Origin: a virus
Virus record (IMG/VR): IMGVR_UViG_3300008117_000424
Coordinates: 1-21,253 of that record
Length of the DNA stretch: 21,253 bases
Direction: 5' to 3' (one strand)
Of this stretch, positions 1,947 through 21,253 are shown one piece after another. A program made the position numbers and the translations under genes. The notes under the pieces are model-generated. The model was not told where the DNA came from. It did not search any database and saw nothing but the letters and a program-made list of their open reading frames with translations. Each line of letters opens with the position of its first letter. The stretch's first letter is position 1.

Positions 1947-2148
1947 CCACGACGAGATGCGCAACGCACTCGTAAGAGCTCTCACCTACGGTGTGGACTT
2001 TAGCTACGCGCGGATTCTACAGGTTGACCCTGAGATACTGCCGCTTTTTCCTTGTCCCGCTTGCGCTTGTCTCGCTTGTACTGGACATACTTCTCATGAA
2101 CATCGGGACGCTTCCTGCGCTCACGATCCGCCATGCGCCTCCGCATGA
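1939..2148 (+). CDS. Possible small protein overlapping whiB on the opposite strand
   Basis: A 69-aa frame opening MSDHDEMRNALVRALTYGVD, coupled to the previous gene by an 8-nt overlap. The first ~37 residues read like a normal helical protein. The rest is unusually Cys- and His-rich and lies antisense to the 3' end of the WhiB gene (149-nt overlap). Either the two genes truly overlap tail to tail, or one has a shorter real end. As it follows the compact upstream run, I favour it being translated, at low certainty. Confidence 0.45.
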   Translation: MSDHDEMRNALVRALTYGVDFSYARILQVDPEILPLFPCPACACLACTGHTSHEHRDASCAHDPPCASA

Positions 2149-2395
2149 CGGGGTCATTGAAGTAACCAGCAACGTATCGTTCGTAGTCTGTCTCGCCGCC
2201 CCAGATGCCGTGTTCCTCGTTCTCACGAGCGTACTGCCTGCACTGCTGCTGAACCGGACACTGATTGCAGATCACACGAGCTCGCGCCTCGCGGTCTCTC
2301 TTCTCCCGTTGGGTCTCTCTGAATGGCTCAAAGAATAGGTTTGTGTGCCCTCGGCAGATTGCCTGGTCAAACCAAGATGTGTTCTTGAGTGTCAT
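2000..2395 (-). CDS. whiB: WhiB-family iron-sulfur transcription factor
   Basis: A 131-aa protein with the four Cys that ligate the [4Fe-4S] cluster: C14, then C43-x2-C46-x5-C52, followed by the GIWGG turn (residues 63-67) that defines WhiB proteins. A long basic tail (RRRMADRERRKRP and onward) would contact DNA. WhiB proteins bind the host sigma factor and are confined to Actinobacteria and their phages. Phage copies such as that of mycobacteriophage TM4 can interfere with host WhiB function. The ATG follows AAGGA by about 10 nt and overlaps the upstream gene by 29 nt, so it is probably the last gene of a three-gene unit. It is longer than the usual 80-100 aa because of the tail. Confidence 0.9.
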   Translation of the reverse strand: MTLKNTSWFDQAICRGHTNLFFEPFRETQREKRDREARARVICNQCPVQQQCRQYARENEEHGIWGGETDYERYVAGYFNDPVMRRRMADRERRKRPDVHEKYVQYKRDKRKRDKEKAAVSQGQPVESARS

Positions 2396-2865: not shown

Positions 2866-4911
2866 TTACTTCGCGTTGTCCTTGACGAACTTGATCTCGC
2901 AAGCGTCTGTTGTGCAGTAAGACTCGCCAATCGCGTCCGCCGCCATGCCCGCGTAGACACCGGAGAAGTCGATTGGAAACAGCTTCATGGTGCCTTCCTT
3001 GTATTGCTCAGCGGTGATCTGAGTGTACGGCATCTGCGGATAGGTCATGTTGCCCTGCGGTAGGAACGAGACCGTCTTGAGCTGTCCGTCATACATGTGC
3101 AGCACTGTTCCGACGTGCTCCTTCTCGGTCTCGGCGTCAAACGAGATCGTCACCGAGACGGAGTTGTCTGACCAGTAACGCTGCGCTGTTGCGGCAAGCG
3201 ACATCTTCTCGAAGATTGTCACGTCCTTCTCGGAACGTGTCGCGTTGGACTCGATGGGGAAGAACACCACGGACGTCGTATCGGGAGATTCCGACGCCGG
3301 CTCGACTCGGTAGTTCGCCATCTTGAACAGCGGAAGCATCGGGTCGTCGTTGGAGAAGCGGATCGCACGGTCGAAGTACTTACCGCCCGGTGTCCAGTGA
3401 ACCCCAGGCGACTCGCCGGCAAGAATGGAAACGGTGCCGGAAGGCTTTACCGTCGTCATCTTGATTGACTCACGGATACCCAACCACTCAGAGTAGACGT
3501 TGTCGTGATTCTTTACCGTGTTGTATCCGGCGTCCATCCACTCGCGAAGAACGGGCAGCCCGACGCGGTCAGCAAAGTTAGCGACGCCAGAGATTGACGT
3601 TCCGATGCGGCGGTTCCTCTGCATGATCGCGTTTGTCTCCTCCCAGTGCGTGGGAAGAAGCGTGACGGTCTTCGCATAGAGATACGCGAACTTCAGCGTG
3701 CGCTTGAAGTCATCAAGATTGTCATGACGGTTGAGGTATGTCTCGACAAGCGTGCAGCACTCATAGCTCTCAAGCGACTGCTCGGCGCAGGGGTTGTACC
3801 CAGCGACGCGCCAGTCCTTGTTGTTTGCGGGATCGGCAAGACGCCCATACTTGCGCGAGACGTCGAGCCAGATGACACCAGGCTCCCCGTTGAGCGCGAT
3901 TCCGTCAACGATGCTTGACAGGTCTGCACCAACAGTTGTCTCAACGCTGTTGTTGGACATCCATCCCCAACCCGGTGCATCGGGATCGTACGAGTTGCGC
4001 TCGGGGAAGCGATCCTTGTTCTTGAGATTGATGAACTCATCGTCACCAAGACGACCAAGCAGCAGCTCGGCGGAGCGACGCACGTTACCAGACACGACGC
4101 AGACTCCGATGAGGTTTCCGATGTCTGCAATATCAACGCGCGAAAGTTTCTGCCCAGCGCGACCCTTGAACATGCGACGGATGTGATTGTGAAGCTTGAT
4201 CAGCGGATCGGGTCCAGCCGCGGTGCCGCCAAACGTGCGGATAGGTTCGCCGGCTGCGCGAATCTCGGAGTAGTCAAACTCCGCTACGCACTGATCTGCC
4301 TTGAGGTAGGAGTTGATCAGTGTTGTCACCGACTCGACCCAACCTTCACGAGTATCGGGGATGACCTCGATCGCGCAGCTCTTCGTTGGCTCGTAGATTG
4401 TGAAGTCCTTGTCTGCGCCCTTGTCGTCAAAGCCGACGCCAACGCCCAGCATCGACGCTTCCATAAGAAACGCGAACGGCTTCGCTGGATTGTTCTTCGA
4501 CATCTCGGCAGTCGAGACGAATGCGCAGTTCTGAAGAGCGGCTGAGTTCTTATGCAGGTTGACAAGCGGAGTGCCCATGACCCAGAGTCCACGCCCAGGC
4601 GGCGTCCACTTGAGATTGAACAGACGATCAAACGCTTCCTTCGCGCTTGCCTGCGCCTTGGCATCATTCCAAGGCAGTCGGTTTGTCTTGCAATGATCCT
4701 TCTGCAGCGAATACATTCCGTTGATGACTCGCTCGCAAACGTCTACCCAAGTTTCCTTGGTGCCGTCTTCCTTGAGACGCGAATAGGTGCGAAGAAAAGT
4801 GATTTCTCCAACCGAGTTGCCACCGGCGTCGCGGTAACCAAACGGCGCTTTCTTGTCGCGGTATCCAGCGACAAAGTCGTCGTTTAGACGGAAAGAGAAC
4901 ATCGAAGACAT
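2866..4911 (-). CDS. nrdJ: Adenosylcobalamin-dependent (class II) ribonucleotide reductase
   Basis: This 681-aa protein matches the monomeric RTPR type exemplified by Lactobacillus leichmannii (739 aa). It reduces ribonucleotides with a B12-generated thiyl radical. Visible are QNCAF (C129, redox Cys), NPCAE (C375 thiyl Cys, E377) followed by ECC (C386, partner of C129), KPSGTVSILAGESPGVHW, and the C-terminal shuttle pair C666-x4-C671. The ATG at 4911 is preferred over the GTG at 4920 because GAGG lies 8 nt upstream. The enzyme works with or without oxygen, which suits a phage of variable habitats. It sits between the DUF3039/nei genes and the holin-like unit, has its own -10 box, and is complete. 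Confidence 0.95.
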   Translation of the reverse strand: MSSMFSFRLNDDFVAGYRDKKAPFGYRDAGGNSVGEITFLRTYSRLKEDGTKETWVDVCERVINGMYSLQKDHCKTNRLPWNDAKAQASAKEAFDRLFNLKWTPPGRGLWVMGTPLVNLHKNSAALQNCAFVSTAEMSKNNPAKPFAFLMEASMLGVGVGFDDKGADKDFTIYEPTKSCAIEVIPDTREGWVESVTTLINSYLKADQCVAEFDYSEIRAAGEPIRTFGGTAAGPDPLIKLHNHIRRMFKGRAGQKLSRVDIADIGNLIGVCVVSGNVRRSAELLLGRLGDDEFINLKNKDRFPERNSYDPDAPGWGWMSNNSVETTVGADLSSIVDGIALNGEPGVIWLDVSRKYGRLADPANNKDWRVAGYNPCAEQSLESYECCTLVETYLNRHDNLDDFKRTLKFAYLYAKTVTLLPTHWEETNAIMQRNRRIGTSISGVANFADRVGLPVLREWMDAGYNTVKNHDNVYSEWLGIRESIKMTTVKPSGTVSILAGESPGVHWTPGGKYFDRAIRFSNDDPMLPLFKMANYRVEPASESPDTTSVVFFPIESNATRSEKDVTIFEKMSLAATAQRYWSDNSVSVTISFDAETEKEHVGTVLHMYDGQLKTVSFLPQGNMTYPQMPYTQITAEQYKEGTMKLFPIDFSGVYAGMAADAIGESYCTTDACEIKFVKDNAK

Positions 4912-4956
4912 GTTACGCACCTCATAGCATGGGAGAGAGATTGGCTGAGGTTAGCA

Positions 4957-10871: not shown

Positions 10872-11849
10872 GTGGAAACAAGCAAACTCAAGACAAAAGT
10901 CTCAGCAGCGGATTGGCCCGTTGGTTTGTACCCAATGTCGGTCCGTCTGCGTGATTCTCGCGGTCGATATATGAACGGGGCCCAAGTTTCAATCTCACCG
11001 ATGCCTCCGTCAACCCTGATCTACGAGACACGCGAACCGGCAACCGTCGAGACGATGCAGCTTGGTCGGCAGGAGTCTCAGATGAATCTCCTGATACCAG
11101 CCGGCGTCTACGACGTCACCTTCAAGAAGGGCGACGAGACATCGAGCACATCGGTGACGGTCAACGACCAGATAGCCTCGACCACGTCGCAGACCTGGAA
11201 GGACGGCAAGCCTTTCTACTTCCGAGACCTCAACTGGGATCGGTACATCATCAAGGAGAACGCCTACAACGACCTCAAGGTTGTCTCGGGCGACGTGGCT
11301 CTGGACATCGGCGGTCACATTGGGACCTTCAGCCGTCTGGCTCTCTACAGGGGAGCGTCGGTCGTCGCCATCGAACCCGACCTCTACAACAACCGTCTGC
11401 TGACGATGAACGTCGCTGAGTACCCCGGCAAGTACGAGGTCATCAGAGCTGCCGTTGTGGCCGATGACTCAGACTTTGCTGCGGCTGGCGTCGCCTCACT
11501 TTGGGTCGACGCGGACGGCAGCGGCGACTCGTCGCGGACGGCTCTTCACTCGCTCTATCGCACCCGCGGCTCCCGCCTCCCCGTCGAGGTTCCGACTGTG
11601 ACTTGGTCGGAAGCGCTCAAGAGCTGCTCGCCCACCGTTCTCAAGGTCGACGTGGAAGGCGCCGAGCTGACCTACGACTGGTCGGCCTTGTCCGTCTGCG
11701 ATAACCTCCGGACAATCGCGGTCGAGATCGAGAAGAAGAAGAACAAGGAAAGCGAAAGGCAGGTCATCTCGGACAGCATCGCCGCCCTCGGCTTTAAGAA
11801 GACGAAGGAGACAGTCGGCTGGGCGATTGTTCAGATGTGGAGTCGCTGA
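10872..11849 (+). CDS. FkbM-family methyltransferase with N-terminal beta-sandwich domain
   Basis: A 325-aa protein. Residues ~15-100 look like an Ig- or carboxypeptidase-regulatory-type beta domain (PVGLYPMSVRLRDSRGRYMN and, further on, LLIPAGVYDVTF). The C-terminal ~190 residues form an FkbM SAM methyltransferase: ALDIGGHIGTF (143-153), AIEPD (166-170) and LKVDVEGAEL (257-266). FkbM enzymes usually methylate sugar or polyketide hydroxyls. The GTG at 10872 has AAAGGA 10 nt upstream and is the most plausible start; the longer frame to 10611 runs over the divergent promoter. It is followed 4 nt later by the recombinase. The fusion suggests the enzyme works on or is held at a surface structure; the substrate is unknown. 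Confidence 0.78.
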   Translation: METSKLKTKVSAADWPVGLYPMSVRLRDSRGRYMNGAQVSISPMPPSTLIYETREPATVETMQLGRQESQMNLLIPAGVYDVTFKKGDETSSTSVTVNDQIASTTSQTWKDGKPFYFRDLNWDRYIIKENAYNDLKVVSGDVALDIGGHIGTFSRLALYRGASVVAIEPDLYNNRLLTMNVAEYPGKYEVIRAAVVADDSDFAAAGVASLWVDADGSGDSSRTALHSLYRTRGSRLPVEVPTVTWSEALKSCSPTVLKVDVEGAELTYDWSALSVCDNLRTIAVEIEKKKNKESERQVISDSIAALGFKKTKETVGWAIVQMWSR

Positions 11850-11853
11850 TCCC

Positions 11854-12555
11854 ATGGCCAAGAAGCCAAAGACAAAGCGGAAGGTTGCTTTGCTCTACAC
11901 TCGAGTCTCGACGACGATGCAGGTCAACGACGGTATGTCGCTTGGCGCCCAGGAGCGCGACCTCAAGCGGGCGGCCGAGAACGCTGGGTACGCCGACGAC
12001 GAGATCGAGCTTCTTCGCGAGGAGGGCAGGTCGGGCAAGTCAATCACCGGTCGCCCAGTTCTTCGAAACGCGCTCGAGCGACTAGACAGCGGAGACGCAG
12101 ACGCGATCTTCGTGACCAGGATCGACCGTCTGGCAAGATCGACCAAGGACTTTCTTAGCATCGTCGATCGAGCCAACACAAACGAGTGGCGCATCGTCAT
12201 GCTCGATCTCAACCTCGACACCGCGAGCTATCAGGGGCGCTTTGTCGTCACGATTATGTCGGCCCTGGCCGAGATGGAGCGGGCGATCATTGCCGAGCGT
12301 CAGAAGGACGTTCATCGTGACCGTCGCGAGAAGGGCAAGGAGTGGGGCGTAGACGTTGGGCCCAAGACAAAGGTTCCCGTCGAGACCCGCCGACGCATTC
12401 TCGAGCTTCGTGAGAAGGGCGTGTCATACGCAAAGATCGCCGACATGCTCAACGCCGACGGCGTTGCTCCGGTGCGCGGAGACAAGTGGCATGCCGGAAC
12501 GGTTCATCGTCTTGTCAACGGTCTCAAGGATAAGCGGCTAACCGACGAAACATAG
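11854..12555 (+). CDS. Small serine recombinase (resolvase/invertase type)
   Basis: A 233-aa protein with the resolvase catalytic domain: LLYTRVST (nucleophile S19, R17), GRSGKSITGRP (58-68) and IDRLARS (90-96). A helical region, SALAEMERAIIAERQ (136-150), follows. The C-terminal part RRILELREKGVSYAKIADML, then GDKWHAGTVHRLV, is a helix-turn-helix region like the start of the Recombinase (PF07508) domain. It is far shorter than large serine integrases (over 400 aa) and has no zinc ribbon, so a resolvase, DNA invertase or reduced integrase is likely. No attachment site could be proven. Start taken at the ATG; the ribosome site is weak. Confidence 0.88.
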   Translation: MAKKPKTKRKVALLYTRVSTTMQVNDGMSLGAQERDLKRAAENAGYADDEIELLREEGRSGKSITGRPVLRNALERLDSGDADAIFVTRIDRLARSTKDFLSIVDRANTNEWRIVMLDLNLDTASYQGRFVVTIMSALAEMERAIIAERQKDVHRDRREKGKEWGVDVGPKTKVPVETRRRILELREKGVSYAKIADMLNADGVAPVRGDKWHAGTVHRLVNGLKDKRLTDET

Positions 12556-12680: not shown

Positions 12681-15302
12681 TTAGCGAGCAAATCTCGTTG
12701 CAATTCCCCAGTCAACCTCCCCGGTCGGGACGGCTCGGGGGACCAAGATGTAGTTGCGAATCTCGGCACGCGACCCGAGGCCGTTGATCTCAAGGCCTCG
12801 CTCAGACAGCTTCCGCTGAAACGCGATCTGGGTCATCGGCTTCTCGCCGCGTTCCTCAGACCACACGCGATAGACGGCGTAGATTGCCTTGATCGGAGTG
12901 GCCGCGCCGTCGACCTCCTTGGTCTCCTCGGTCAGGAAGAATCCGATGCGGTCCTCGTTCTTGCGATAGATCTCGGCCGCCTCGCTGACGACGGAGCACC
13001 AGCCGAGGGCGTCTCGTGCGCTCGACCCAAGCAACTTGATCGCACCCTCAACTGCCCAAGACAGCACCGCCGGCAGTCCACCTTCTGGGTCGAACAGATA
13101 GTGCTTGAGATCCGGGTCGGGATTCTCTGGAACGCGCGTCATCGGAATGGGTCGGATTCGGCGCCACATCGCGTCATCGGTGATGATAGGTCTGTGGTTT
13201 GTCGTGATCCAAAGCTTGGCGCGAGACTGGAATGTGAACGGCTTCTCTCCAGGCGAACGTGCCGAGATCTCGGACGAACCGGTGAGCTTCTTTACGGAGT
13301 TCTCCTTCATGCGCTCGGACTCCGGCAACTCGTCGACCCACACCATGCGCCGACCGCGAAGCTCGGCCCAGTGATATAGATCCGAGCCATGCGCCTGGCC
13401 GTCGCCCTGCGCGAGGATGCTCGAGTCAAGAGGCCACGCGTACTGCGACGTGCCCATCGCCTTGACCAGTGCCTCGACCATTGTGTTCTTACCGGAGCCT
13501 GGCGGACCGTAGACGAGGAACATGATGTCGTAGGTGCGCAGACCAGTCAGCGAGTACCCGGCCGCCTTCTGCAGCCACTCCTGAAGCTCCTTGTCGCCGC
13601 CGGTTGCGAAGTCGATGAACTGCTCCCAGCGCACGTTGCGAATTCCCGGATTGTAGGCGACCGGCGCACGCCGCGTGATGTATAGGTCAGGCCTGCCCTT
13701 GAGGAGCTCGCCCGTCCGCAGGTCGATGACGCCGTTGGCTACACCAAGAAGCGTTTCATCGCTGTCCCATGTTTCCACGGCAACCTGCACTCGTGGGTCA
13801 GACGTAGCGCTCTCAATTGAGCCATTGATGCGGGCGTTTGACTTGGCCTGCTGCGCCCAGCGGATTACCTCGGACTGCTTGTCCGCGTCATCAAGATAGT
13901 GAACAACTTCACTCGCGACGATCGGCGCGATCTTCTTAGCAAGCTCACGCATCTCAAGACTCTCGACGTCGGGCTTCCAATACCCGCCATCCCAGTGAAA
14001 CCAGCCAAGCCCTGGAGTGTATCGTATTGCGGGGCCAAAGGAGTCAACAAGTCGTCGTCCATTTCCAGTGTCAGTAAGACTTCTCTTTCCTGGCTCTCCG
14101 CCTTCGTCCTCGCTAAGAGCATCAGGGTCGAGAGGAACGTCAATGTTAGCAAGACTAGTCGCTGTCGCGAGCGAGTCGCCATCAACCATCGAGCTATGGA
14201 CAGCACCCCCGATAGTGCCGGGAAGACTAGAAGAATAGCTAGGCGCTTCGGCAGGACTAGACTTCTGCTTCTGTCTGGCTGATGTGACCGATGCACGGCT
14301 CTCCTCTGTAGACTTGTCCGCCCACTCCTTGAGTCCAGGCCACAGGCGTTCAGTCTTTGGGTTGTCTACGACAAACTGTATCGCCCTTCGGACGTGCATA
14401 AGCAGTCCACCAGGCCCTTCGATCTCCAGCGGCGGGCGAACCTTCTCGGCGTTGAACCGAATCATCATCGTCTCAACGGCGAGGCGACCAGCCTCGGTAT
14501 TGACGGGAAACTTGTTCGCCAGCGCGCACGACATCGCGTAGATGTCAACGGCGCGTGAACCCTCGTCAATGCCTTCGGTAAGAAGACGATCAATGTCAAC
14601 CCGCTCGCCTGACCAGTCGAGCGAGTCAAGGAAGCCCCAGTCGCCCTCACCAAGCGCTGTACCACCGCGCGACGACCCTTTCTTGCGAAGAGCTGTAAGC
14701 AACTCTTCAGGAGCCTCCGCCATCTCGATTTCCCACGGCGCCTTTCCTGGCGCCCAGTCGTAGCAGACCCCGGAGAAGTGACGAGAAGGTGCGATCAACA
14801 CATAGCCGTTGTGTTTGATGTCGATGCCGCCGAGGCCAGCCTTCTTGAGGTTGCCTACGAGCTGCTCCGCTTCGTCGCATCTATAGAATAGGTGGCGGCC
14901 GCGTACAGTCCTGCCGCCGATTGAGTACTCGCCGGTGATCGCCTCAACCGTAGGCGGAAGCGCACCGTCGACGAGTGCCTCGAACTTTTCAAACGAGTCG
15001 GGCCCGCCGGAGCGAGGGTCGATGTCGATGACGAAGAATCCGCTTGGGCGACAGAACACGGCAACGTTCTGCTCGCTGCCCTCGGGCCACCACTGCTTTA
15101 CCGTGTTGACATCGCTCGTTGCCTGGTTGTTCCATTCAGCGATACTCGGGTGCTTGCCGACGTCCTTTGGCTCAGCGTGCGCGCCGCCGCACGTGCAGCG
15201 GCCGTTGTCGATGCCGTAGCACGGCAGAATGTGCCAGCCCTTGGCGGCGTACCACTCGGCCGCGGGGCCAAGTCTACCGGTAGCTGCGTTCCAGGCGCTC
15301 AT
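12681..15302 (-). CDS. Prim-pol primase/polymerase fused to D5-type SF3 helicase
   Basis: An 873-aa replication protein. An N-terminal CTCGGAH and VGKHP motif leads into a prim-pol domain with FFVIDIDP (D93, D95), RGRHLFYRC (H137) and GIDIKHNGYVLIAPS. A linker rich in Ser and Pro (about 330-410) separates it from a D5_N/SF3 helicase with Walker A GPPGSGKNT (599-607), Walker B RMVWVDELPE (652-661) and motif C KLWITTNHRP (696-705). It would prime and unwind phage DNA. The ATG at 15302 overlaps the HTH gene stop (ATGA), so the two are coupled. The size is normal for such fusions. Confidence 0.92.
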   Translation of the reverse strand: MSAWNAATGRLGPAAEWYAAKGWHILPCYGIDNGRCTCGGAHAEPKDVGKHPSIAEWNNQATSDVNTVKQWWPEGSEQNVAVFCRPSGFFVIDIDPRSGGPDSFEKFEALVDGALPPTVEAITGEYSIGGRTVRGRHLFYRCDEAEQLVGNLKKAGLGGIDIKHNGYVLIAPSRHFSGVCYDWAPGKAPWEIEMAEAPEELLTALRKKGSSRGGTALGEGDWGFLDSLDWSGERVDIDRLLTEGIDEGSRAVDIYAMSCALANKFPVNTEAGRLAVETMMIRFNAEKVRPPLEIEGPGGLLMHVRRAIQFVVDNPKTERLWPGLKEWADKSTEESRASVTSARQKQKSSPAEAPSYSSSLPGTIGGAVHSSMVDGDSLATATSLANIDVPLDPDALSEDEGGEPGKRSLTDTGNGRRLVDSFGPAIRYTPGLGWFHWDGGYWKPDVESLEMRELAKKIAPIVASEVVHYLDDADKQSEVIRWAQQAKSNARINGSIESATSDPRVQVAVETWDSDETLLGVANGVIDLRTGELLKGRPDLYITRRAPVAYNPGIRNVRWEQFIDFATGGDKELQEWLQKAAGYSLTGLRTYDIMFLVYGPPGSGKNTMVEALVKAMGTSQYAWPLDSSILAQGDGQAHGSDLYHWAELRGRRMVWVDELPESERMKENSVKKLTGSSEISARSPGEKPFTFQSRAKLWITTNHRPIITDDAMWRRIRPIPMTRVPENPDPDLKHYLFDPEGGLPAVLSWAVEGAIKLLGSSARDALGWCSVVSEAAEIYRKNEDRIGFFLTEETKEVDGAATPIKAIYAVYRVWSEERGEKPMTQIAFQRKLSERGLEINGLGSRAEIRNYILVPRAVPTGEVDWGIATRFAR

Positions 15303-15514
15303 TGCTTGGCGCCTGTCTCGCTCTGAAGCGAAACTATCCAAGCAATAGCGTCGTCGTGCGATATATACGAGCGTTCGCGACCTGTCTCGGTCTTTATCTT
15401 TAGCGCGGGAAGCTCTCCCTGCGCGACAGCCCTGGCTACCACACGCTGCGGGATTCCATGGAGTAGGGCTACCTTGCGGATGCTAAGCCGCTTCGTTGCT
15501 TCTTGTGATTGCAT
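15299..15514 (-). CDS. Excisionase-like helix-turn-helix protein
   Basis: A 71-aa protein with a winged HTH of the MerR/excisionase type: LSIRKVALLHGIPQRVVARA (10-29), then the wing LPALKIKTETGRERSYIS and the closing helix DDAIAWIVSL. Such proteins act as recombination directionality factors or as small repressors. Here it is coupled to the primase-helicase rather than to the recombinase, so local control of replication genes is equally likely. It probably reads from the extended -10 at 15583-15592. Confidence 0.75.
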   Translation of the reverse strand: MQSQEATKRLSIRKVALLHGIPQRVVARAVAQGELPALKIKTETGRERSYISHDDAIAWIVSLQSETGAKQ

Positions 15515-15582
15515 CTAAGTTGTCTCTCGGGCCGGTGGAGAAGTGATCAATTTTGCACTTTTGTGACATTTGGGATTTGGAC

Positions 15583-15592
15583 ACTATACCAA
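15583..15592 (-). promoter_or_regulatory. Extended -10 box for the HTH-primase unit
   Basis: The minus strand reads TTGGTATAGT, with TGn before TATAGT. Start predicted near 15576, leaving a ~60-nt leader. The same TTGGTAT core occurs at the holin-like/whiB promoter. Confidence 0.45.
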
Positions 15593-15708
15593 GTGGGCGT
15601 CGGTTGGCGTCACCTACTTAGACTTTTCTTGGACAAAGTGCGGGGTAGACATGGTATCACAGAAGTGTACCGTACTTATACATGACAGGTATCAGTACAT
15701 GTTATTGT

Positions 15709-15737
15709 TTGACCCGACGCATCGACATCGGTATCAA
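15709..15737 (+). promoter_or_regulatory. Promoter for the HTH-phosphoesterase unit
   Basis: TTGACC (15709-15714) is followed by a 17-bp spacer and TATCAA (15732-15737), matching 5/6 and 4/6 of the consensus. The third GGTATCA copy overlaps the -10, as an operator would. Predicted leader to the ATG at 15769 is ~25 nt. Confidence 0.42.
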
Positions 15738-15768
15738 CACACTACGTAAACGCAGAGGTACAAAGGCC

Positions 15769-16008
15769 ATGGGCAAATTGTTTGATGACATCAAGAAAGA
15801 GCAAAGCCACAGAGGCACACGCTCTCGGATCGCGGAGATCTACGAGCTTCTCCCCGAGGACGAGCGCAAGGACTTCATAAAGGCACTTGATGATCACAGC
15901 ATTCCAGCCTCCAATATCTCAAAGGCTATGGCAAAGCGAGGCCATAAGCTTGCGATCAACGTGATTAGCCGCTATCGCCGCGGAGAACTGACGACGGTCA
16001 TCAAATGA
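15769..16008 (+). CDS. Small HTH-like DNA-binding phage protein
   Basis: A 79-aa basic protein: RIAEIYELLPEDERKDFIKA, then LDDHSIPASNISKAMAKRGH and ISRYRRGE. The 'D-x-IPAxxIxxAMxxRGH...ISRYRR' layout is a recurring helix-turn-helix in actinophages, often next to replication or packaging genes. An AGAGG lies 10 nt before the ATG, with AAAGG closer. Earlier in-frame starts (from 15682) would cross the promoter. The stop overlaps the phosphoesterase ATG (ATGA). A DNA-binding regulator or small terminase-like role is possible; neither is shown. Confidence 0.68.
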   Translation: MGKLFDDIKKEQSHRGTRSRIAEIYELLPEDERKDFIKALDDHSIPASNISKAMAKRGHKLAINVISRYRRGELTTVIK

Positions 16009-17021
16009 GTCTTGCAGACGACATCCACAAGGAAGACGAGATCACCGAGCTCCGCAAGGCGCTCAAGCGAGCGCAGCAGGCTGAGTATAAGGCAAAGCGG
16101 GCGAACGAGACGATCACCGAGGCGGTGTACGCCGCCGCGCGTGAGGCGGCCATTGCATCCGGTGGAGGCAAGCCACTTAAGATTGAATCGCGTCCGAAGG
16201 ACACCCGCAAGGGCAAGGCCGAACACGCGCTGATCCACCCGACCGACTGGCAGCTTGGAAAGCGAACCTCCAACTACAGCATCGACATCTGCTCGAAGCG
16301 AATGGAGCAGTTTACGCAGAAGGTCATGGAGCTTACGGAGATCCAGCGCACCCACCACCCAGTTCGTGAGGCCACCGTTATGTTCGGTGGCGACATGGTG
16401 GAAGGCATCACGATCTTCCCCGGTCAGGCCTGGGAGGTCGAGGCGCATCTCTTCGAGCAGCTCTTCGAGACCGTGCGCATCGAGGAGATGATGATTCGCA
16501 CCCTAGCCGCATTCTTCGACAAGGTGCACGTCGTCTGTGAGTACGGTAATCACGGCCGCCTCGGTCGCAAGGGCGAGCTCCCGGCACATGACAACATCGA
16601 CGCGATCTCCTACAAGATCACGGCCGACCGCACGAAGGACCTCAAGAACGTCACCTGGCAGATGTCGTCCGACTGGTACCAGATTGTGAGCGTTGGAAAC
16701 TACAAGGCGCTTCTGGTTCATGGAGATGAGATCAAGTCGTTTGGCGGAGGCACACCCGCATTCGGCATCCTACGCAAGTGCAACGCCTGGGCGACCGGCG
16801 TGGTTCCAGACTTCAAGGACGTCTACATGGGCCACTTCCACACGCCGATGGCTCTTACGATGTCCAACGGTGGCCGCATCTTCGTGACCGGCTCTCCCGA
16901 GTCGGAGAACGTCTACGCCGCGGAGTTCGTTGCCGCAAAGGGACATCCGTCTCAGCGCCTTCACTTCGTTGACCCCGAGCACGGCCGCGTCACGGCCGAG
17001 TACGTCGTCTGGCTCGACTAG
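16005..17021 (+). CDS. Calcineurin-like metallophosphoesterase
   Basis: A 338-aa protein with a coiled-coil N-terminus (about 1-50) and the full set of metal motifs in order: HPTDWQLGK (78-86), FGGDMVEG (127-134), YGNHGR (180-185), VHGDEI (238-243) and MGHFHTP (275-281). The first motif is D-x-Q instead of the usual D-x-H, a variation common enough not to mean inactivity. Phage members of this fold are DNA exonucleases or nucleotide phosphatases; the pairing with a DNA-binding protein favours DNA processing. Translation is coupled to the upstream HTH gene. Substrate unknown. Confidence 0.85.
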   Translation: MSLADDIHKEDEITELRKALKRAQQAEYKAKRANETITEAVYAAAREAAIASGGGKPLKIESRPKDTRKGKAEHALIHPTDWQLGKRTSNYSIDICSKRMEQFTQKVMELTEIQRTHHPVREATVMFGGDMVEGITIFPGQAWEVEAHLFEQLFETVRIEEMMIRTLAAFFDKVHVVCEYGNHGRLGRKGELPAHDNIDAISYKITADRTKDLKNVTWQMSSDWYQIVSVGNYKALLVHGDEIKSFGGGTPAFGILRKCNAWATGVVPDFKDVYMGHFHTPMALTMSNGGRIFVTGSPESENVYAAEFVAAKGHPSQRLHFVDPEHGRVTAEYVVWLD

Positions 17022-20024: not shown

Positions 20025-21253
20025 ATGGCTAACAGGTTCTTTTCATCGATAAAGGCGCGGTTCTTCAGCACCGCCGCAGACAACGCCGTAGACATTGGCG
20101 TAAAGGATGACGCAAACGCGCGGTTGGCCATTGACGCAGGCGGGCGCGTCACATGGGGCGACGGAACCAACGCCGCCGACACAAACCTCTACCGCGACGC
20201 GGCTGACGTTCTCAAGACGGACGACACGTTCAAGGCTGCCGCACTCTACGTTGAGGGCATCGAGATTGACACGACGGGCGCTGACAGCCTAGAAGCTCTT
20301 GTATACGACGGCACAAAGTTTGCGCCCGCAGCCATTCCTCGATCTTTGGACGATCTTAGCGATGTTGTCATTACGACGCCAGCAGAGTTTCAAACCCTTG
20401 AGTACAACGGCACAAGCTGGGTAAATGCGTACTCCTCCGTCGTCACCTACGCAAGAAATGCCGAAGCGACCACGCTAGGAATCGGTACGGTCGTTTATTT
20501 GTTTGGCGCGACCGGAGACCATGCAACTGTAAAAAGAGCAGACAATGACTCTGATACGACTTCTTCAAAAACCGTTGGTATGGTCGCTGCACCAATCGCA
20601 GCGAATGAAAACGGCCCAATTGTTACTCGCGGATACGTAAAGGGAGTAAGTCTTTCCGCGTATTCTCCAGGCGACATTCTGTGGTTGGGTGAGAACGGCG
20701 GATTCACCACTACAAAACCATCCGCTCCTGAGCATTTGGTTTTCGTCGGCGTCGTCGTTCGCGCCACAAACAACGGAATCGTATACGTAGCTGTTCAAAA
20801 CGGATACGAGTTGGACGAACTGCACAACGTCGCAATCGATCCTCTTACGTTGGCGAATGGTGACGTTATTCGCTACAACTCCACAACCGGTCTTTGGGAG
20901 AACAACCAAGTCGTCGGTCCGAGTGGACCGACGGGACCGACGGGACCGACGGGACCGACGGGACCGACTGGTCCGACTGGAGCAACCGGCGCAACAGGGA
21001 CAGCAGGAACAAGTACGGGCTTGACCGTATTCTTGGACGACGCCGGCGGCACCGGACCGGTTACAGGAGATGCACTCGTTATTCCGAATACTGGTGCTCA
21101 AACGAACGTCGTCGTAACCGCTGGTACCGGTACTCCAGTTTTGCTTGCTTCGTTCGTTACTGAAGCTGGAGTTCCAAATAACACCGCCTTCGTTGGCGGA
21201 GTGTGGCAAGCGGTTGCCTACATGCGGCATCAGTTAGGGGGTGGAACGTTTAG
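20025..21253 (+). CDS. Tail-fibre protein with collagen-like repeat (3' partial)
   Basis: The frame is open from the ATG at 20025 to the window end (409 codons visible) and truncated there. It starts MANRFFSSIKARFFSTAADN. A Gly/Asp-rich beta region follows, then RNAEATTLGIGTVVYLFGAT to VAVQNGYELDELHNV (about residues 143-271), a module I know from fibres of many aquatic phages. A GPT collagen-like run (about residues 299-320) and a GATGATGTAG stretch come next. DNA from about 20450 uses more A/T-ending codons than the first third, so the gene looks assembled from parts. GAGG lies 6 nt before the start. Confidence 0.85.
   Translation, partial: MANRFFSSIKARFFSTAADNAVDIGVKDDANARLAIDAGGRVTWGDGTNAADTNLYRDAADVLKTDDTFKAAALYVEGIEIDTTGADSLEALVYDGTKFAPAAIPRSLDDLSDVVITTPAEFQTLEYNGTSWVNAYSSVVTYARNAEATTLGIGTVVYLFGATGDHATVKRADNDSDTTSSKTVGMVAAPIAANENGPIVTRGYVKGVSLSAYSPGDILWLGENGGFTTTKPSAPEHLVFVGVVVRATNNGIVYVAVQNGYELDELHNVAIDPLTLANGDVIRYNSTTGLWENNQVVGPSGPTGPTGPTGPTGPTGPTGATGATGTAGTSTGLTVFLDDAGGTGPVTGDALVIPNTGAQTNVVVTAGTGTPVLLASFVTEAGVPNNTAFVGGVWQAVAYMRHQLGGGTF
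20925..20978 (+). repeat. 9-bp tandem repeat encoding Gly-Pro-Thr
   Basis: Four perfect GGACCGACG units and two variants (ending ACT, or GGTCC) encode GPT triplets of a collagen-like fibre segment. Copy number can change by slippage. Confidence 0.9.

Follow-up and report, generated by a model that had tools for sequence, protein, structure and literature searches.

A 9-bp direct-repeat array, predicted operator of a winged-helix protein, beside the primase/helicase gene of an uncultured phage

The window analysed here, 21,253 bases long, is the whole of a virus record whose ends are linear (IMGVR_UViG_3300008117_000424). It is a fragment of a tailed phage related to Actinomycetia phage DSL-LC01 (OQ999401, 129 kb, metagenome-assembled), the region's sole match in the phage collection. 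A spacer at positions 15515-15768 divides a leftward pair, hth1 and a primase-polymerase/helicase gene, from a rightward pair, hth2 and an Mre11-like phosphoesterase gene. The left half of the spacer contains an array of three 9-bp direct repeats (family unit ATTTGTGAC) that is present or absent together with hth1 in related phages and keeps a fixed place beside a leftward -10-like element. The array is very probably a binding site of HTH1, and we give a probability of about three in four to the whole account, in which HTH1 bound to the array also represses the hth1-primase/helicase operon.

A 9-bp array upstream of hth1

The original prediction had pointed to AAGTG, GGTATCA and GGCGTC repeats in this spacer, with the two flanking helix-turn-helix proteins as candidates for binding, and it missed the array at 15550-15576. 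The idea of an operator for a flanking protein is supported for HTH1, by way of the array and not of the repeats that were named. In hth1-bearing relatives, ATTTGTGAC-like tandem units sit between the proximal leftward -10 element and hth1. Among 43 distinct spacer sequences, tandem TTTGTG pairs (at most one mismatch, 9-10 bp apart) were found in 13 of 15 hth1-bearing regions versus 0 of 28 hth1-less spacers. Loci in which hth2 is cut off, such as L009, L015 and L019, lie outside this count and outside the upstream-motif counts given below, which use 30 non-redundant spacers.

For a held-out test, an HTH1 profile of 12 members was used to fetch 80 hth1 loci. Twenty-two of these came from discovery contigs and three (L215, L229 and L257) had too little upstream DNA; the remaining 55 loci gave 44 distinct regions. 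L200 is on the same contig as L019, which is outside the discovery set, and the 14-member discovery set includes L137, a near-copy of L117. A primase relative lies beside hth1 in all 44 held-out regions and an hth2 relative in 41 of them. TTTG pairs at exactly 9 bp occur upstream of hth1 in 37 of the 44 held-out regions and in 14/14 discovery regions, and in none of 27 hth1-less primase spacers. The remaining distances between 5 and 16 bp were each found in 0 or 1 of the 44 held-out regions, the opposite strand yielded one region of 44, and shuffles of the held-out regions had a mean of 0.4 and a maximum of 3. The stricter TTTGTG pair was absent from the opposite strand (0/44) and from a control stretch inside the held-out loci (0/43). 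The ninth position of the unit is C in 19 of 39 units.

The array is also fixed relative to the predicted promoter. In 12 of 14 discovery regions, 6 bp separate the end of the last unit from AnnnTA, the leftward -10-like element (the distance is 5 bp in L133 and 7 bp in L001). This 6-bp spacing is kept in L069 and L070 though their array is ~90 bp from hth1; in these two loci hth2 is ~1 kb off, with another reading frame between. Transcription starts ~7 bp after a -10 element, and the array would therefore cover approximately +1 to +27 of the leftward transcript. The window and DSL-LC01 each have a single TTTG-9-TTTG pair with the -10 geometry, in either case at this spacer; when the -10 element is disregarded, such pairs number 2 and 10, respectively. 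The spacer of one other contig (L083/L087) is identical to that of the window.

Since the members are related, the shuffle counts overstate independence, and a primase tree served as a guard. The tree contains 77 rows, 52 with hth1 and 25 without (L001, L195 and L207 were left out). The hth1 state changes five times on this tree (bootstrap range 5-6), the starred branches force at least two changes, and shuffled labels require about 21. None of the 25 hth1-less rows has the array in its orientation; in L082, one of these rows, a TTTG pair occurs on the other strand. Scanning the 25 hth1-less stretches with the profile revealed no hidden hth1 (best E value 0.37). Because these rows retain a homologous primase, the array travels with hth1 and not with the primase.

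HTH1 and the predicted control of the primase/helicase operon

HTH1 comprises 71 residues. An AlphaFold2 model computed from a 12-row alignment (mean predicted local distance difference test score, pLDDT, 84.8) has the winged-helix order E-H-H-E-E-H, and the predicted fold resembles those of Xis and BldC. The best Foldseek matches are Pukovnik Xis, RacA and BldC with probabilities near 1; Pukovnik Xis, at rank 1 (probability 1.00, E value 0.018), identifies the modelled fold as an Xis-type winged helix. BldC bound to DNA is rank 1 in VIA-align (Z 7.8). The model is that of a single MerR-like winged helix with neither a dimerisation nor an effector domain, and BldC is among its top structural matches. 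Two of the 12 aligned members match the NCBIfam BldC model NF033787 (best E value 0.011), and PHROGs and NCBIfam models of excisionases and recombination directionality factors (RDF) are among the best weak matches. Arg28 is invariant in 12/12 members and lies on the helix matching that of BldC Arg30; the aligned structural ranges start at residue 8 in HTH1 and 10 in BldC, an offset of two residues that comes from the ranges and not from a residue-level alignment.

The comparisons with known systems draw on the available portions of the papers cited. Streptomyces BldC, like HTH1 a small MerR-like winged helix without an effector domain, binds 9-bp direct repeats AATTXXXX(C) head-to-tail, and its Arg30 contacts the C-G pair (PMC5859096). 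As a DNA pattern, the array resembles this type of operator in its exact 9-bp period and in its unit ATTTGTGAC, an AT-rich stretch followed by a C-G pair, and head-to-tail binding is accordingly predicted for HTH1 from the BldC case. HTH1 differs from BldC in being encoded by a phage, in that its window copy goes unmatched by the BldC family model, and in the place of its array, which lies at the hth1 promoter ahead of a primase gene. Xis and BldC bind direct repeats cooperatively.

The spacer as a two-way promoter region is supported at the family level, where the divergent promoters of the original prediction appear as probable extended -10 elements. The pattern TGNTANNNT is enriched on both strands of the 30 non-redundant spacers, with 23/30 on the plus and 25/30 on the minus strand, compared with shuffle means of 9.8 and 10.2 and maxima of 16 and 17, respectively. 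A simple sigma-70 consensus scan of 15400-15900 returned no site.

In the proposed mechanism, the left half of the spacer would be the operator-promoter of the hth1-primase/helicase operon. HTH1 would bind the array head-to-tail, one monomer per 9 bp, and oligomerise over roughly the initial 27 bases transcribed from the leftward promoter at 15583-15591. Accumulating HTH1 would block this promoter, and the array-bound protein would form a roadblock to transcripts from the second leftward promoter at 15651-15659. The predicted outcome is negative feedback on HTH1 itself and on the primase/helicase.

Apl/Cox and XisF4 provide phage precedents for the regulation of transcription by proteins of this kind. 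Apl and Cox of phages 186 and P2 are small phage regulators that act at direct repeats about one turn apart and repress early promoters (PMC7498355). The direct repeats of Apl are 10-11 bp apart, whereas the array has a 9-bp period at the start of a primase operon, and distances of 10 and 11 bp were each found in 0 of 44 held-out regions. XisF4 of Pf4 is, like HTH1, a 71-residue Xis-like protein encoded divergently from its neighbour and tied to phage replication gene control; it activates the initiator gene and drives excision (PMC7379572), whereas the prediction for HTH1 is repression, and excision is not in evidence. RdfS of ICEMlSymR7A is a winged helix of the HTH_17 type that forms oligomers and acts as a repressor at its own promoter, as is predicted for HTH1 with respect to both oligomerisation and repression, but no consensus motif was found for RdfS and it serves an integrative element (PMC11963761). 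In the literature searched, which left most subscription journals outside its scope, no paper was found on this array-repressor arrangement or on an actinobacteriophage BldC. In its available parts, the main text of the DSL-LC01 paper does not contain the terms promoter, repressor or origin of replication (PMC10611076).

Several results pull in the opposite direction from this account. The stricter TTTGTG pair was found in 17 of 44 held-out regions, 7 of the 44 lack the 9-bp TTTG pair, and the discovery set also has TTTG pairs at 7 and 8 bp (4/14 each). The array of the window is weak, its period-9 self-similarity being matched by 31 of 300 spacer shuffles, and the consensus is loose in its 3' half, as seen from units such as GTTTGAAAC in L207. 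HTH1 has no Foldseek match at an E value of 0.001, its VIA-align Z values are tied with those of many MerR proteins, and it scores 17 bits against Pfam HTH_17, below the cut-off of 27 bits. The window HTH1 does not match NF033787 at E values up to 0.1, and a PDB sequence search with the HTH1 profile or with one member gave chance-like matches (best E values 0.14 and 0.59) and did not find BldC. The promoters, finally, are defined by consensus match and conservation. As for the array, the window copy is among the more degenerate of the family.

Other readings of the spacer and its repeats

The GGTATCA repeats allow a second operator reading, possible but doubtful, in which the three copies are operators of HTH2 and the rightward hth2-phosphoesterase pair is autoregulated. 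The copies start at 15653, 15688 and 15730, with the predicted spacing of 35 and 42 bp, and one further copy exists elsewhere in the 21 kb window. In 2000 dinucleotide shuffles of the spacer, three same-strand copies of some 7-mer arose in 45 shuffles (187 with both strands counted), and the repetition is therefore marginal. In the comparison with relatives proposed in the original prediction, L003 and L004 differ from the window at 14 positions of the 254-bp spacer, and three of these differences replace the initial G of each GGTATCA copy by A (giving AGTATCA); random placement of 14 differences strikes one column of all three copies in ~0.001 of trials. HTH2 of the window and of L003 differ only at three residues, all in the first half. 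L005, the next relative, does not retain the arrangement of three copies. Of the other named repeats, L003 loses two of four forward AAGTG and one of two GGCGTC, and L005 lacks both motifs.

Across the 30 non-redundant upstream regions, GTATCA occurs 18 times (expected 4.0, maximum 9) and TATCA/TGATA is present upstream of hth2 in 28 (expected 12.4). The motif belongs to -10 elements, so this conservation is in part that of promoter-like elements. GGTATCA had been said to overlap the plus-strand -10; none of the copies overlaps the rightward site at 15700-15708, and copy 1 is instead part of a leftward extended -10. In many of the 30 relatives a dyad, cAGTAcatgaTACtGT, lies 30-60 bp before hth2, at the rightward -10 or downstream of it, and favours the HTH2 reading; the window does not have this form. 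TATCA/TGATA was rejected as an HTH2 signature in the wider family, where it does not follow hth2 in held-out families (13/41, with approximate starts).

HTH2 is helical and has no structural match in Foldseek (best E value 1.7), which counts against its role as the binder. Its best matches are two PHROGs of unknown function (18/18 and 17/18 members), followed by weak matches to terminase-small-subunit PHROGs (2/18 members; best E values 0.017 and 0.045) and to a transcriptional-regulator PHROG (2/18; 0.049). In the DSL-LC01 record, HTH2 (L001, 1299-1538) is labelled 'terminase small subunit', and TerL is ~45 kb away on the circular map.

The remaining repeats of the original prediction look like chance. 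Five AAGTG are present when both strands are counted (15541, 15591, 15636 and 15663 on the plus strand, 15556 on the minus strand) and four on a single strand; they are unremarkable, because some 5-mer equals the count in 474 of 2000 shuffles for one strand and 472 of 2000 for both. The GGCGTC pair was located at 15596 and 15606 and likewise looks like a chance occurrence, not kept in relatives.

An unlikely explanation makes HTH1 an excisionase, the directionality factor for an unseen integrase or for the serine recombinase nearby, with the array belonging to its control or forming part of an attachment region. The weak matches to excisionase and RDF models agree with it, as does the serine recombinase gene beyond the primase, and it is retained as a rival because the DSL-LC01 paper, in the parts available, calls the phage apparently lysogenic (PMC10611076). 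The recombinase is present in 62 of 70 loci with enough flank, in 10/11 labelled hth1-bearing and 52/59 labelled hth1-less; this labelling puts L009 and L019 among the hth1-less loci in error, and it does not settle the state of loci that are cut off upstream of the primase. These counts showed no link between HTH1 and the nearby recombinase, which is present whatever the hth1 label. No gene is labelled integrase among the DSL-LC01 features. In the genome-contig collection, two peptide patterns for HTH1 relatives matched 87 stretches, none of which was confirmed, and no prophage sign was found there.

Still less probable is an iteron-like replication origin, in which the repeats would be initiator sites beside the primase/helicase gene and HTH1 or HTH2 would help to open the origin. 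This suggestion of the original prediction draws on the position of a repeat-bearing divergent spacer next to a primase-helicase gene, and the single place of the array with -10 geometry in DSL-LC01 also speaks for it. Its proposed GC-skew check found no clear turn at the spacer in DSL-LC01 (complete) or in two contigs, G001 (83 kb) and G002 (59 kb). The raw cumulative minimum of DSL-LC01 is in the first kb of the record, near the spacer, but the skew rises almost steadily and the spacer-centred curve dips by only ~90 in a rise of ~2160. In G001 and G002 the sign flips locally within 3-5 kb of the spacer, but the extremes are at or near the contig ends and the local flip tracks gene direction. 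The fixed spacing to the -10-like element fits a promoter-linked function, and 25/25 hth1-less relatives without the array keep a homologous primase, which argues against a role in initiation. Least probable of all is that the array is a host-factor or polymerase promoter signal, or an activator site, and not a repressor site of HTH1: its place at the predicted transcript start beside the -10, and the activation of a phage initiator gene by the comparable protein XisF4 (PMC7379572), would allow this, yet a leftward extended -10 may persist near the primase in hth1-less relatives, such as L098, L099 and L136, but the array is found in 0/25.

Gene context and implications

The features of the spacer and its surroundings are listed in Table 1. 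The WhiB gene of the window is in keeping with an actinobacterial host, as judged by its Pfam match; the annotation of DSL-LC01 includes two WhiB family genes. The DSL-LC01 record carries an hth1 homologue (locus L001, record positions 128403-128585) without annotation. A small open reading frame lies between hth2 and hth1, on the hth2 strand, in seven loci examined (L196, L204, L220, L232, L236, L249 and L069). It has a hydrophobic stretch and a common RVE[HY]QLWxNGG motif, looks like a phage membrane protein, and may be DUF2746-like.

Table 1 Features of the window, with predicted functions.
Feature	Position	Strand	Remarks
9-bp direct-repeat array, units ATTTTGCAC / TTTTGTGAC / ATTTGGGAT	15550..15576	+	predicted HTH1 operator, ~+1 to +27 of leftward transcript; units 15550-15558, 15559-15567, 15568-15576
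Proximal leftward extended -10 TGGTATAGT	15583..15591	-	consensus match only; nearest hth1, 6 bp from array
Second leftward extended -10 TGATACCAT	15651..15659	-	consensus match; similar position in most of 30 relatives; holds GGTATCA copy 1
Rightward extended -10 TGTTATTGT for hth2	15700..15708	+	consensus match
GGTATCA copy 1	15653..15659	+	inside leftward -10
GGTATCA copy 2	15688..15694	+	
GGTATCA copy 3	15730..15736	+	
hth1	15299..15514	-	71 aa winged-helix protein, Xis/BldC/MerR-like kind
Primase-polymerase/helicase	12681..15341	-	start overlaps hth1 end
hth2	15769..16008	+	79 aa helical protein, first gene of rightward pair
Mre11-like phosphoesterase/exonuclease	16005..17021	+	PHROG exonuclease; overlaps hth2
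Serine recombinase	11827-12555	+	242 aa; beyond primase
WhiB family transcription factor	2000-2395	-	Pfam PF02467, E 1.2e-15
B12-dependent type ribonucleotide reductase	2866-4920	-	
Tail-fibre-like protein	20025-21251	+	collagen-like GPTGPTG stretch

A further, tentative reading is that the array and hth1 form an operator-plus-repressor cassette, which phages of this uncultured lineage would gain or lose in one piece, between the primase and a leftward promoter that is retained, and which would provide the replication operon with its own filament-type negative feedback. In that case a protein with an excisionase fold, HTH1, would have become a regulator devoted to phage replication genes.

The analysis offers a predicted protein-operator pair, obtained from sequence alone in uncultured phages, whose two parts have been jointly gained or lost several times, and it suggests what a gene left unannotated in the DSL-LC01 record may do. 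The short consensus and its fixed place beside a promoter make the specificity of HTH1 and filament-type repression testable on short DNA. The DNA-binding mode of Xis, Cox and BldC may thus also serve to throttle phage replication genes.
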